From Methylobacterium mesophilicum SR1.6/6 (lineage in GTDB: Bacteria > Pseudomonadota > Alphaproteobacteria > Rhizobiales > Beijerinckiaceae), in contig NZ_CP043538.1 in assembly GCF_000364445.2 (NCBI RefSeq), positions 2,053,612 through 2,117,611 of the forward strand: DNA of 64,000 nt. The letters run 5' to 3'. Under the pieces are notes generated by a model, which saw only the letters and a program-made list of their open reading frames with translations, was not told where the DNA came from and did not search any database. This document shows, piece after piece, positions 18,289 to 59,310 of the stretch. A program made the translations under genes and the position numbers. Position 1 is the first letter of the stretch, and each line of letters opens with the position of its first letter.

Positions 18289-19047
18289 CTACTTGGCGCC
18301 GCCGCGCACCAGGGTCAGGAAGCGGACCTGTTCGTTGGCATTGTCCTTGAACACGCCGCGGAACTGGCTGGTGATGGTCGAGACGCCGGCCTTCTGCACG
18401 CCCCGCATCGCCATGCAGAGATGCTCGGCCTCCACCATCACGGCGACGCCGCGGGGCTTGAGGATGCTCTCGATCACGTCGGCGATCTGGGCCGTCATGG
18501 TCTCCTGCGTCTGCAGGCGACGGGCGAAGGTGTCGACCACCCGGGCGAGCTTCGACAGGCCGACCACGCCCCGGGTCGGGTAATAGGCGATGTGCGCGAG
18601 CCCCATGAACGGCACCATGTGGTGCTCGCAGTGGGAATGGAACGGGATGTCGCGCACCAGAACGATGTCCGAATAGCCCTCGACCTCCTCGAAGACGCGC
18701 TCCAGCAGCTTCTCGGCGTCGACCGCGTAGCCGCCGAACAATTGCTCGTAGGCTTTGGCGACGCGGGCCGGGGTGTCGAGTAGGCCCTCGCGCGCCGGAT
18801 CGTCGCCGGCCCAGCGCAGGAGCGTGCGAACCGCAGCCTCGGCCTCGGCGCGGCTCGGGCGGCCGGTCTCGATCCCGTCCGGGACCCGGGTGGCGGAGGC
18901 CGGCTCCGGGGCGATATCGACGGCGCGGCCGTCATCCGCCGGCCGATTGTCATTGCGCATGCCGTTCAGACCTTGCCCGTCGATCCCGTTCCGGTCGAAA
19001 CCCTGGCCGTCGCCCTGATACGACAGGGATTTGAGCGCGGCATCCAT
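18289..19047 (-). CDS. folE: GTP cyclohydrolase I
   Basis: First step of tetrahydrofolate synthesis (GTP to 7,8-dihydroneopterin triphosphate). Catalytic and zinc residues appear in [13 protein letters not shown] and [15 protein letters not shown]. The C terminus [11 protein letters not shown] matches type I enzymes. ATG 19047 has GGAG five bases upstream and gives 252 residues, including an about 70-residue non-conserved N-terminal extension. The frame reaches 19227, but earlier starts lack ribosome sites. It is the first gene of a probable folE-hisI-patatin unit and divergent from the IscU-like gene. Confidence 0.92.
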
Positions 19048-19367
19048 GGCATCTCCGGCCCGCGCGATGCGGGACTTCATCGGGGTGCTGTCGGGCTTGG
19101 CGTACATCGTCGGATCGCGTCGGGCGTTCGAGGGAAGGTCCCGGGCTCGAAAAGGTTTCAAGCCGGCGCCCCGGGATGGACGAAAAGCCGTAGAATCCAC
19201 CGTGGCCGTGGGCGCGACCCTGGTCAACGGCCCGCCTCCTCGCGAAGTGGCCGCAGGGGGCCTATATCATCGTTCGCGGGGCAACGCGCAATGCGCACAC
19301 GATGCGCGTCCGGCGTGGCAGAGTCCCGAAGAACTTGAGGGCTCTGCGCCCCCCGGCCGAGGATCCG
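19048..19367. other. Divergent intergenic region
   Basis: 320 bases between folE and the IscU-like gene, expected to hold promoters for both directions. A plus-strand TATATCAT near 19262 may be a -10 element. No riboswitch-like structure was recognised. Confidence 0.35.
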
Positions 19368-19811
19368 ATGCTCGACGACATCTACAACCGCCGCATCCTC
19401 GAACTCGCCGCCGACATCCCGCGGCTCGGCCGCCTGGAGAACCCGGACGCGAGCGCGACCGCGCATTCCCGCCTGTGCGGCTCGACCGTGACGGTCGACC
19501 TCGTGCTCGGCGCGGACGGCCGGGTCGCCGACTTCGCCCACGAGGTCCGGGCCTGCGCCCTGGGTCAGGCCTCCTCGTCGCTGATGGGCCGGCACGTGGT
19601 CGGCGCCAGTGCAGAGGAGCTCCGCGGCGTCCGCGAGACCATGCGGGCGATGCTCAAGGAGAACGGCCCGGCGCCCGAGGGCGCCTGGGCAGACCTTGCA
19701 GTGCTGGAGCCGGTGCGGGAGTTCAAGGCGCGCCACGCCTCGACGCTCCTGACCTTCGACGCGGTGGTGGACGCCCTCGACCAGATCGCCGCCAAGCGGC
19801 AGGCCGCGTGA
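19368..19811 (+). CDS. IscU/NifU-like Fe-S scaffold homologue
   Basis: 147 residues from ATG 19368. The IscU/NifU_N pattern is recognisable: LRENP-like LGRLENPDASA, SRLCGSTVTVDL with the first Cys, and ACALGQASSSLMG with the second. The third scaffold Cys, normally in an R..C..L context near the C terminus, appears replaced in FKARHASTLLTFDAVVDAL. That points to a cluster-trafficking or divergent scaffold rather than a standard IscU. YidD follows after four bases, so they are co-transcribed. Confidence 0.75.
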   Translation: MLDDIYNRRILELAADIPRLGRLENPDASATAHSRLCGSTVTVDLVLGADGRVADFAHEVRACALGQASSSLMGRHVVGASAEELRGVRETMRAMLKENGPAPEGAWADLAVLEPVREFKARHASTLLTFDAVVDALDQIAAKRQAA

Positions 19812-19815
19812 GGGC

Positions 19816-20148
19816 ATGGTCCGGCGCGCGGCGCATTGGGCGATCCGGGCCTATCAGCTCACCCTGTCGGGCCTGATCGGCCGCCACTGCCGCCACTGGC
19901 CGAGCTGCTCCGAATACACCGACATGGCCATCGCCCGGCACGGGCTGTGGCCCGGCGGCTGGATGGGCTTCGCGCGAATCTGCCGGTGCGGGCCGTTCGG
20001 CACCCACGGCATCGACCTCGTGCCGGAGCGCCTGCCCGACGACGCGGCCTGGTACCGGCCCTGGGCCTACGCGCGCTGGCGCGGCGTCGAGGCGCCGCCC
20101 TCGCCCTTCGTCTGTGAGGGGGTCGGGGAGGAGGCCGACGCGCGTTGA
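19816..20148 (+). CDS. yidD: Membrane protein insertion efficiency factor YidD
   Basis: 110 residues with the family core AIRAYQLTLSGLIGRHCRHWPSCSEYTDMAI and the GxxxGxxRIxRC-like GGWMGFARICRCGPFG. It assists YidC-dependent membrane protein insertion at the inner membrane. It is usually beside rnpA and yidC near the origin; here it follows an IscU-like gene with a four-base gap, an arrangement frequent in Rhizobiales. It lies 18 bases upstream of a parS site. Confidence 0.9.
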   Translation: MVRRAAHWAIRAYQLTLSGLIGRHCRHWPSCSEYTDMAIARHGLWPGGWMGFARICRCGPFGTHGIDLVPERLPDDAAWYRPWAYARWRGVEAPPSPFVCEGVGEEADAR

Positions 20149-20165: not shown

Positions 20166-20181
20166 TGTTTCACGTGAAACA
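20166..20181. promoter_or_regulatory. parS: parS centromere site (ParB-binding)
   Basis: TGTTTCACGTGAAACA, a perfect 16-bp palindrome identical to the widely conserved chromosomal parS consensus bound by ParB. It is intergenic, just after yidD. parS sites cluster close to oriC in most bacteria, so this implies an origin-proximal position. parA and parB are not in the window, and no further perfect copy was noticed here. Confidence 0.9.
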
Positions 20182-20274
20182 CGTCTCGCCGAGCGAGCAT
20201 CGCGCTGCATGGACGTGCCGGAAGAGTCCCAATCGCGTGCAGACTCCCAGCAGACCGCCGTTCGCATCCGCGCC

Positions 20275-20386
20275 CTCATTCTGAGGTGCCCGCATCAGCA
20301 GGCCTCGAAGGAGGGCTCCAGGGATTGGGCAGCCGGCTGGAGGGCTCCTTCGAGGTCTTCGCTGCGCTCCGGCACCTCAGGATGAG
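20275..20386. repeat. Dispersed nested inverted repeat, family A copy 2
   Basis: Ends are CTCATTCTGAGGTGC and GGCACCTCAGGATGAG, inverted copies of each other. The inner pair is CTCGAAGGAGGGCTCCAG and CTGGAGGGCTCCTTCGAGG. It matches the copies at 5861 and 30045. It lies between parS and the PdxA2-like gene, about 60 bases past that gene's stop. Confidence 0.88.
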
Positions 20387-20448
20387 GGCGCGGCTCGGAG
20401 ACGCGCGGTCGTTCCTATCCGACGGCCCGCCCCCGTATCCCCAGATCC

Positions 20449-21470
<1,022 letters not shown>

Positions 21471-21474
<4 letters not shown>

Positions 21475-22574
21475 GCGTCGCTCCTGTCGGGCGGGAATCC
21501 GTTGCTGTGAAGTAGATCGCGCCAGACGCCCTCCGTTCCGAAGGCGCCGGATTTCGACACCACCGCGAGCCCGTCCCAGCGGCCGCCCCGCAGGGTCGAG
21601 CGCGGCAGGCCCGGGATGATCTGGCCGGTGACGTCGAGGCGCTCGACCCCGAGGGCGAGGCAGAGGGCCTTCAGCGTCTCCCCGCCGGCCACCAGCAGCG
21701 TGCCCGGCCTCGCGATCCGGCCGACCGCGCCCGCGTAGGTCTCGGCGATCCGCGCCGCCGCGGCCTCGCGGGCCGTGCCCCGGGGCAGCGCGAGACTCGC
21801 CAGCACGACCCCGTTCCGGTCGAGGGACGCCGCGAGCGATCCGGCATGGTCGGGATCGTCGGGCGCGAGGATCCGGTGGTGCGGGCCGCAGGCCGCGAGC
21901 TGCGCCGCGGTCTCGGGCCGGTCGGAGCCGAAGAGGCCGAGCACGGGACCGGCGAGGCGGTGGTCGCTCGGCGGCGCCGCGCCCCGCGCCAGGGCCGCCG
22001 CGAGGCCGCCGCTCCCGCACCACAGGACCGGACCGTCGTCGCCGAGTTCCGCGATCCGGGCGAGATCGTCGTCGCTCGCCGCATCGTAGATGGCCACGCC
22101 GGCCACGGGGCCGTCGGCCGCGGCGGCGCTGCGCGCCGGCAGACCCGCTGCGCGCAGGGCCTCGGCGATGTCGCCGGAGACCGCGTCCCAAACGCCGTCG
22201 CGCCGGGCTAGCTGTCGGCCGTCCACCGTGCGGCGGCCCTGATAGGGGAAGGCGGGCGCCACGACGCAGCGGCTCCAGGGACCCAGGCGCATCACCGCGG
22301 CGAGTTCCGCCGCCCAGGGGCCGCGCAGCAGGCTGTCGACCTTCTTGAATGCGACGTCGGCGCCGTGGAGCCGAGGGGCCAGATCACCGACGACCCGGGC
22401 GGCGACGTCCGCCGACAGCTCTCGGGTGCCGGAATCGATCGCCAGGCATCCGGGAGCCTCCGCCGACAGGAGTTCCGGCCACGCCACCGGGATCGGCCCG
22501 CACAGGCCGGTGAACCCGGCCGCGGTGTCCAGGGTACCGGTGAGATCGTCGGCGATGAGGCGCAGGCGGGTCAT
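21471..22574 (-). CDS. Four-carbon acid sugar kinase (DUF1537 family)
   Basis: 367 residues. The N-terminal domain starts LRLIADDLTGTLDTAAGF, the DDxTG substrate-binding motif of the family; FKKVDSLLRGPWAAEL follows. The C-terminal nucleotide-binding domain has GTLLVAGGETLKALCLALGV and the glycine-rich SKSGAFG. Characterised relatives (DtnK, OtnK, DenK) phosphorylate D-threonate, D-erythronate or related acids at C4. It is the first gene of a two-gene unit with pdxA2 and is divergent from a KdgT-type transporter. Confidence 0.85.
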
Positions 22575-56063: not shown

Positions 56064-57212
56064 TCATGGCCGGACCGCGCCCCCGAAGAAGTCCCGCACC
56101 TTCGAGAAGAAGCCCGCGGATTCGGGATGGTTCTCCGGGGAAGCCGACTGGTCGAACTCCTGGAGCAGCTCGCGCTGGCGCTTGGTCAGGTTCTGCGGGG
56201 TCTCGACGAAGACCTGGATGTAGAGGTCGCCGACCTCCCGCGAGCGGAGCACCGGCATGCCCTTGCCCTTGATGCGGAACTGCTTGGCGGTCTGCGTCCC
56301 CGCCGGGATCCGGACCTGCGTCTGCGAGCCGTCGATCACCGGCACGGTGATCTCGCCGGAGAGCGCCGCGGTCACCATCGAGATCGGCACCCGGCAGAAG
56401 AGGTCCGCGCCGTCGCGCTGGAAGAACTCGTGCTGCTTGATCGACAGGAAGACGTAGAGGTCCCCCGCCGGCCCGCCGCGCAAGCCGCTCTCGCCCTCGC
56501 CGGCGAGCCGGATGCGCAGCCCGTCATCGACGCCCGCCGGCACGTTGATCGAGAGAGTGCGCTCGCGGTTGACCCGGCCGGCGCCCTGACAGGCGGTGCA
56601 GGGATCGTCCACGATCTCGCCACGGCCGTGGCAGTTCGGGCAGGTGCGCTCGATGGCGAAGAAGCCCTGCGCCGCCCGCACCCGTCCGTAGCCCGCGCAG
56701 GTCGGGCAGGTCCGCGGCTTCGAGCCCGGCTTGGCGCCGGAGCCGTCGCAGGCTTCGCAGGTCACCGACGTCGGGATCTTGATCGTCTCGGCCTTGCCGG
56801 CGAAGGCCTCCTCCAGGGTGATCTCGAGGTTGTAGCGCAGGTCGGCCCCGCGCTCGCGCCCCGGCGCGCCGCCGCGCCCGCGCGCACCGCCGCCCCCGCC
56901 GCGGCCGTCGCCGAAGAAGTTGTCGAAGATGTCCGACATGAAGTCGCCGAACTCGTTGCCGAATCCGGGTCCGCCGCCCCCGCCCTGGCTGAAGGCCGCG
57001 TGGCCGAACCGGTCGTAGGCGGCGCGCTTCTGGCCGTCGGAGAGGCACTGATAGGCCTCGTTGATCTCCTTGAACTTGATCTCGGCGTCCTTGTCGCCGG
57101 GATTGCGGTCCGGATGATAGGTCATCGCGAGCTTGCGGAAGGCGACCTTCATCTCGCCGTCCGTGGCGGTCTTGGTGACCCCCAGGATCTCGTAATAGTC
57201 CCGCTTCGACAT
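56064..57212 (-). CDS. dnaJ: Chaperone DnaJ (Hsp40)
   Basis: 382 residues. J domain (about 3-70) with the HPD motif in [16 protein letters not shown]; Gly/Phe-rich linker (about 75-130). Four CxxCxGxG zinc repeats: [24 protein letters not shown] and CTACQGAG. C-terminal substrate-binding domains follow. It stimulates DnaK ATPase. It lies downstream of dnaK on the same strand, 181 bases away, separated by a strong terminator-like hairpin, so it is expressed by readthrough or from its own promoter. Confidence 0.96.

Positions 57213-57393: not shown

Positions 57394-59310
<1,917 letters not shown>

Follow-up and report, generated by a model that had tools for sequence, protein, structure and literature searches.

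The 16-base palindrome TGTTTCACGTGAAACA at positions 20166..20181 of the window (the whole 64-kb stretch analysed, corresponding to 2,053,612-2,117,611 of a genome held in one contig of 6,555,179 bases, 6.56 Mb) is predicted, with a probability of roughly 0.9 on sequence grounds, to be a chromosomal parS of a Methylobacterium ParABS system; very probably it is a working ParB site. This reading is well supported by enrichment of such sites over a reversed control pattern, by the co-occurrence of parAB, and by recurrence at the same gene junction in relatives. An earlier note on this DNA had taken the site for a parS that places the window near the replication origin: parS identity stands, and origin proximity finds support only indirectly, through relatives, so that the interpretation as a whole is partly supported.

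Within the window the palindrome lies exactly where the earlier note had put it, is assigned to neither strand, and is identical to the ParB consensus, as expected of a predicted ParB nucleation site. It is the sole site at three mismatches or fewer; dinucleotide shuffles of the window yield a mean of 0.07 such sites, with at least one in 6 of 100 shuffles. The element is intergenic: it starts 17 nt past the stop of yidD (membrane protein insertion efficiency factor, 19816..20148, + strand; TIGR00278, 74.2 bits against a cut-off of 40), and a pdxA-type gene convergent with yidD ends at 20449. The ORF in question (20449..22191, - strand) scores 358 bits with TIGR00557, above cut-off; the pdxA-type dehydrogenase homology is confined to its residues 244-575, which reduces the gene proper to about the last 340 residues. 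Upstream of yidD lies a SufU/IscU-like Fe-S scaffold-type protein (19302..19811, + strand; TIGR01994, 64 bits, below the cut-off of 92.5), and folE (GTP cyclohydrolase I, 18289..18864, - strand) served as synteny anchor. The placement right after yidD, the presence of dnaK (57394..59310, - strand) and dnaJ (56064..57212, - strand) in the window, and the location of parAB outside it had all been proposed in the earlier note and hold good. The note had also taken dnaKJ for a sign of an origin-proximal locus.

A scan of the home genome finds 11 sites at one mismatch or fewer: two perfect, four of a hybrid form (TGTTTCACGGGAAACA, in either orientation), four variants at the outermost base, and one TGTTCC form. 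None occurs at exactly two mismatches and one at three; the reversed control pattern gives none within one mismatch and one within three. On the same contig parB is at 1,096,754, preceded by parA, with a perfect parS at 1,095,197. The ParB scores 193.6 against TIGR00180 (cut-off 58.45), and there is a second, weak ParB_N match at 998,731; each of the 59 genus genomes has a single ParB match at E <= 1e-30. A 16-bp palindrome matching the ParB consensus thus shares its chromosome with parA and parB. When the site at three mismatches is included, 10 of 12 share a gene junction with a site in at least one relative, the counterpart of the site at 3,839,025 being weak (72% flank). The site at three mismatches, CGTTTCACGTGAAAAC (G000:C1:1111741-1111756), is found letter for letter in relatives G010, G007, G002 and G049, 15-19 kb from the parAB site, in a comparison that covered the 16 bases; it may be either a weak ParB site that has been conserved or a piece of conserved coding sequence.

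In ParABS systems a ParB dimer nucleates on the parS palindrome, clamps, and slides along adjoining DNA; ParA moves the ParB-DNA complex, and the complex loads SMC, so that the origin domain is segregated first. By this established biology, a ParB dimer would nucleate on the 16-mer, clamp, and slide onto the DNA flanking it; the resulting complex would be moved by ParA, and SMC loading would favor early segregation of the origin domain. The yidD copy would be an accessory site some 0.5-0.7 Mb from parAB (a distance taken from relatives), one of 8-11 sites by which a single clade of the genus would have a broader origin domain. The 16-mer is identical to the chromosomal parS of many other bacteria and of Bacillus subtilis (consensus TGTTNCACGTGAAACA, in the accessible part of PMC4409726), with which the Methylobacterium set also shares several copies, a single arc in relatives, and cognate parAB on the same chromosome. 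It departs from the typical case in the breadth of the arc (0.8-1.5 Mb), in the distance of parAB from dnaA (1.1-1.7 Mb in four relatives) and in its many hybrids. Judged by its letters, the window's site is ordinary in kind, a real and recurrent parS.

Proximity to the origin is best approached through four relatives, in each of which a single arc holds parAB and all sites at one mismatch or fewer: 808 kb (G002), 1137 kb (G007), 1463 kb (G010) and 981 kb (G049). These arcs amount to 0.13-0.23 of the contig, with probabilities of 7e-5 to 5e-7 under uniform placement. The orthologue of the yidD site is 476 kb (G010), 591 kb (G002) or 708 kb (G049) from parB. A first guess at dif found nothing close in the stretches examined; with a looser pattern, a dif-like sequence, CGCATAAGATATATTATGGAA, appears in three Methylobacterium genomes (L353, L354 and L355) of the nine genomes searched, the home genome being among those in which none was found. 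In all three genomes that have it, parB is 158-266 kb from the point opposite this sequence, and in G010 that point is 278 kb from the yidD-site orthologue. As an origin marker dnaA was rejected, since in the four relatives 1.08-1.73 Mb separate it from parB; in the home contig it is at 2,237,229. Beside dnaA itself, G010 has 24 other DnaA-family matches, which score far lower and in many cases identically; they look like IstB-type transposition helpers, which would make this genome rich in such elements.

The home contig gives a different picture. There 977 kb separate the yidD site from parB, and the arc of the 11 sites measures 3306 kb, 50% of the contig (chance 0.012 for an arc so small). 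GC skew, sampled in 100 pieces of 20 kb each (together 30.5% of the contig), is weak when cumulated, with a minimum at 3.09 Mb, a maximum at 5.98 Mb and a correlation of 0.14 between neighboring stretches; it was rejected as sole locator of the origin. Among octamers with at least 150 copies in this genome, GGGCAGGG (as its complement) has the top strand-bias spread. The cumulative count of GGGNAGGG, which we take to be KOPS-like, drops to 2.7-2.8 Mb, stays low until about 3.9 Mb and rises after that with dips; by this bias, which is stronger than the GC skew, the origin side falls in the broad region of 2.7-3.8 Mb. Skew and strand bias both indicate an origin near 3 Mb, a place that lies about 1 Mb away from the window (2.07 Mb) and does not agree with parAB (1.1 Mb) either. 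The earlier note had expected copies of the 16-mer to gather near the skew minimum and had named even scatter round the chromosome as evidence against its reading; in the site order of this contig, clustering near the origin is not seen and, read literally, the scatter is half there, with 11 sites over 50% of the length.

The order of sites in the home contig differs from that in G010, G007 and G002; for this reason the relatives are given more weight in locating the origin. The places of the sites at 1,821,515 and 3,799,954 stand 1.98 Mb apart here and 28-37 kb apart in those three genomes (placement in G010 being by flank, its near site about 900 bases off), and the stretches ending at 1,199,371 and 1,137,417 are neighbors within about 1.1 kb in G010 and G002. 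The sampled contig contains single undetermined bases and one run of 10,000 N near 402.5 kb, which may be an assembly gap; errors of order are therefore plausible, and misordered scaffolding is a simpler reading than real rearrangement. It is rather unlikely that the assembly is correct and that genuine parS sites were dispersed by large rearrangements, leaving the site away from the origin in this strain. Such dispersal would fit the spread of sites over half the contig, the 1.98-Mb separation and the profiles that indicate about 3 Mb; against it stand the single arc kept in four relatives, among them G010, one of the two closest by ParB identity, the undetermined bases and N run, and the finding that extra parS sites at mid-arm are disfavored in Caulobacter (according to the accessible text of PMC5815017). 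The yidD site would be origin-proximal by way of the relatives, an indirect form of support, and is not so by its own assembly.

At least one site at one mismatch or fewer occurs in each of the 59 genus genomes, for 236 sites in total, and the number per genome varies widely: 1-3 sites in 39 genomes and 5-11 in the other 20, the cut at five between few- and many-site states being our choice. On the ParB tree, well-supported branches force three changes between these states. Every member of a 16-genome clade, in which ParB identity to the home protein is 86% or more, carries 8-11 sites. Among the 59 loci fetched by ParB alone, 30 have such a site about 1.5 kb ahead of parB, at the far margin of the piece; the other 29 pieces have no site, and they are not countable as lacking one because the home genome's own piece breaks off 42 bases before reaching its site. 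The idea that ParB evolves faster in the multi-site clade was considered and rejected, since, whichever groups are compared, the divergence of ParB is about twice that of ParA (ratios 1.82-2.40; 58 of 59 genomes, the fetched piece of G050 being without ParA). What causes parS numbers to differ, and what makes the sites cluster, are questions raised in a review (PMC7333895, in the part available). Sister species with one and with ten sites, and junctions that hold a perfect site, a hybrid or none, make the question of number testable; sites that have multiplied and are often lopsided in some branches of this genus could help to explain why bacteria differ in parS number.

The lopsided sites are the hybrids, in which one half, and never both, has C in place of A at position 6. 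The exact form TGTTTCACGGGAAACA has 93 copies in 22 of the 59 genomes. In the 16-genome clade hybrids make up 84 of 155 sites, beside 71 other sites at one mismatch or fewer, and in G007 they are 8 of 11, outnumbering perfect ones. The exact form with C in both halves, TGTTTCCCGGGAAACA, is absent from all 59 genomes, and a search for it within one mismatch returned, genome by genome, just the hybrid counts. With independent change in the two halves one would expect some 25 double-C sites, a figure that serves as a guide and not as a test, orthologous sites being non-independent. Hybrids recur at orthologous junctions in the loci of up to ten genomes (at the site at 1,821,515; these loci were fetched through the motif). 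Which half is altered may differ: at the site at 1,984,231, G007 differs from the home genome, G017, G041 and G010, and at 3,799,954 the home genome differs from G002, G007, G021 and G037. The junction of the site at 2,155,378 holds a perfect site in G002, G049 and G013, a position-1 variant in the home genome and G010, and a hybrid in G007, G043 and G052, in a comparison where as many as 145 bases separate the end of the flank alignment from the site; within one junction, sites may have been gained separately. At locus L239 (G052:C3) a hybrid runs straight into a second, partial hybrid copy, the two overlapping by the last base of the first, as though a half-site had undergone duplication. 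That hybrids might be unique to Methylobacterium was rejected: the exact form is present in 15 of 388 genomes of the order outside the genus (one copy in 14, two in one) and in four of the nine genus genomes drawn in the same survey, where the reversed control matches 3 of 397.

These sites are read here as ParB sites that are tolerated and probably somewhat weaker, made frequent, at a genomic GC content of about 70%, by mutation pressure toward G+C, with loss of both halves presumably prevented. A stronger proposal, that selection keeps a second, lopsided class of parS with exactly one C6 half, the altered half flipping in some cases between species at one and the same junction and the double form being forbidden, strikes us as quite doubtful; were it true, lopsided sites would load ParB more weakly and in graded fashion over about 1 Mb, and centromere strength would be tunable by single-base changes. 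Position 6 is also where Noc differs: its site, the NBS, has in each half an A as first base and a C as sixth, and Noc carries the residue set Q173/K179/K184/R201 (numbering and roles of these specificity residues as given in the accessible portion of PMC7383237). A hybrid half shares the position-6 C with the NBS, but hybrids keep G at position 1 and are altered in one half only, and the home ParB has R173, T179, N184 and G201 in place of Noc's Q/K/K/R. Neither the window's site, with G at position 1 and A at position 6, nor this ParB, which scores 216.9 against a Noc model cut-off of 315, belongs with Noc and its NBS. Residues 173, 179 and 201 are R, T and G in all 59 genomes, so that a switch of ParB specificity behind the hybrids was rejected; at residue 184 the 16-genome clade and six other genomes have N, and 37 have Q.

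It is very unlikely that the hybrids are degenerate relics, no longer bound, and that only perfect or near-perfect sites work. They do depart from consensus at the base that separates parS from the Noc site (same part of PMC7383237), and the three invariant residues are of ParB type throughout; yet relics would hardly account for 93 exact hybrids beside no exact double-C form, or for recurrence at orthologous junctions in the motif-fetched loci, and the accessible part of PMC7383237 lends plausibility to C6 tolerance, because G201 has no side chain with which to read base pair 6. In Thermus thermophilus HB27, moreover, ParB binds the chromosomal parS TGTTTCCCGTGAAACA by EMSA (PMC4409726, in the part available), a sequence that also stands in a table of PMC7022226 (likewise available in part) and is the same as the hybrid of the Methylobacterium clade. 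As far as these sources extend, the hybrid is an already known parS variant, with the difference that Thermus has one such site, whereas in the Methylobacterium clade hybrids occur alongside perfect sites and the window's own site is perfect. Among open-licence papers, no description of the abundance of hybrids in the clade or of the one-half-only rule was found, and a search by title and abstract start found no paper about parS in Methylobacterium.

Conservation of the site after yidD is patchy within the genus and close where the site occurs. Of 80 loci fetched with FolE as anchor, two (L116 and L117) have a site at one mismatch or fewer, both perfect and after yidD, and L169 and L179 have a two-mismatch match each. 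Among the Methylobacteriaceae loci fetched in this way, 15 of 17 show no site within two mismatches, though yidD is present in all 15 (M. brachiatum, 13 other Methylobacterium-named loci and one Methylobacteriaceae MAG); the yidD-junction site is therefore dispensable in the genus. Four further genomes, fetched through the 16-mer itself (G002, G049, G017 and G010), have a site at the same yidD junction. The window and these six relatives, two of them free of motif selection, carry the identical perfect 16-mer 15-19 nt past the yidD stop amid differing flanks, so that the 16-mer is conserved beyond its surroundings; for the four fetched by motif, identity of the 16 bases is partly due to selection, and the shared position is not. 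That the element is an ordinary transcription factor site or a hairpin at the end of the yidD transcript, resembling parS by chance or symmetry, would suit its place 17 nt past a stop codon between convergent genes and is barely credible when the same 16-mer adjoins parAB, variants stand at other gene junctions, the sequence outside the 16 bp varies among species, the window sequence has no run of T downstream, and a perfect 16-bp palindrome leaves no loop.

By FolE, the nearest named relative is Methylobacterium sp. UNC378MF at 99%, records of the home genome itself having perhaps been left out of the comparison. A tRNA search of the window found none. Just 3' of the parS site, at 20270-20400, an inverted-repeat-like element was spotted by eye; its 17-base core occurs once in the window and five times in 2 Mb of sampled genome, which marks it as dispersed.
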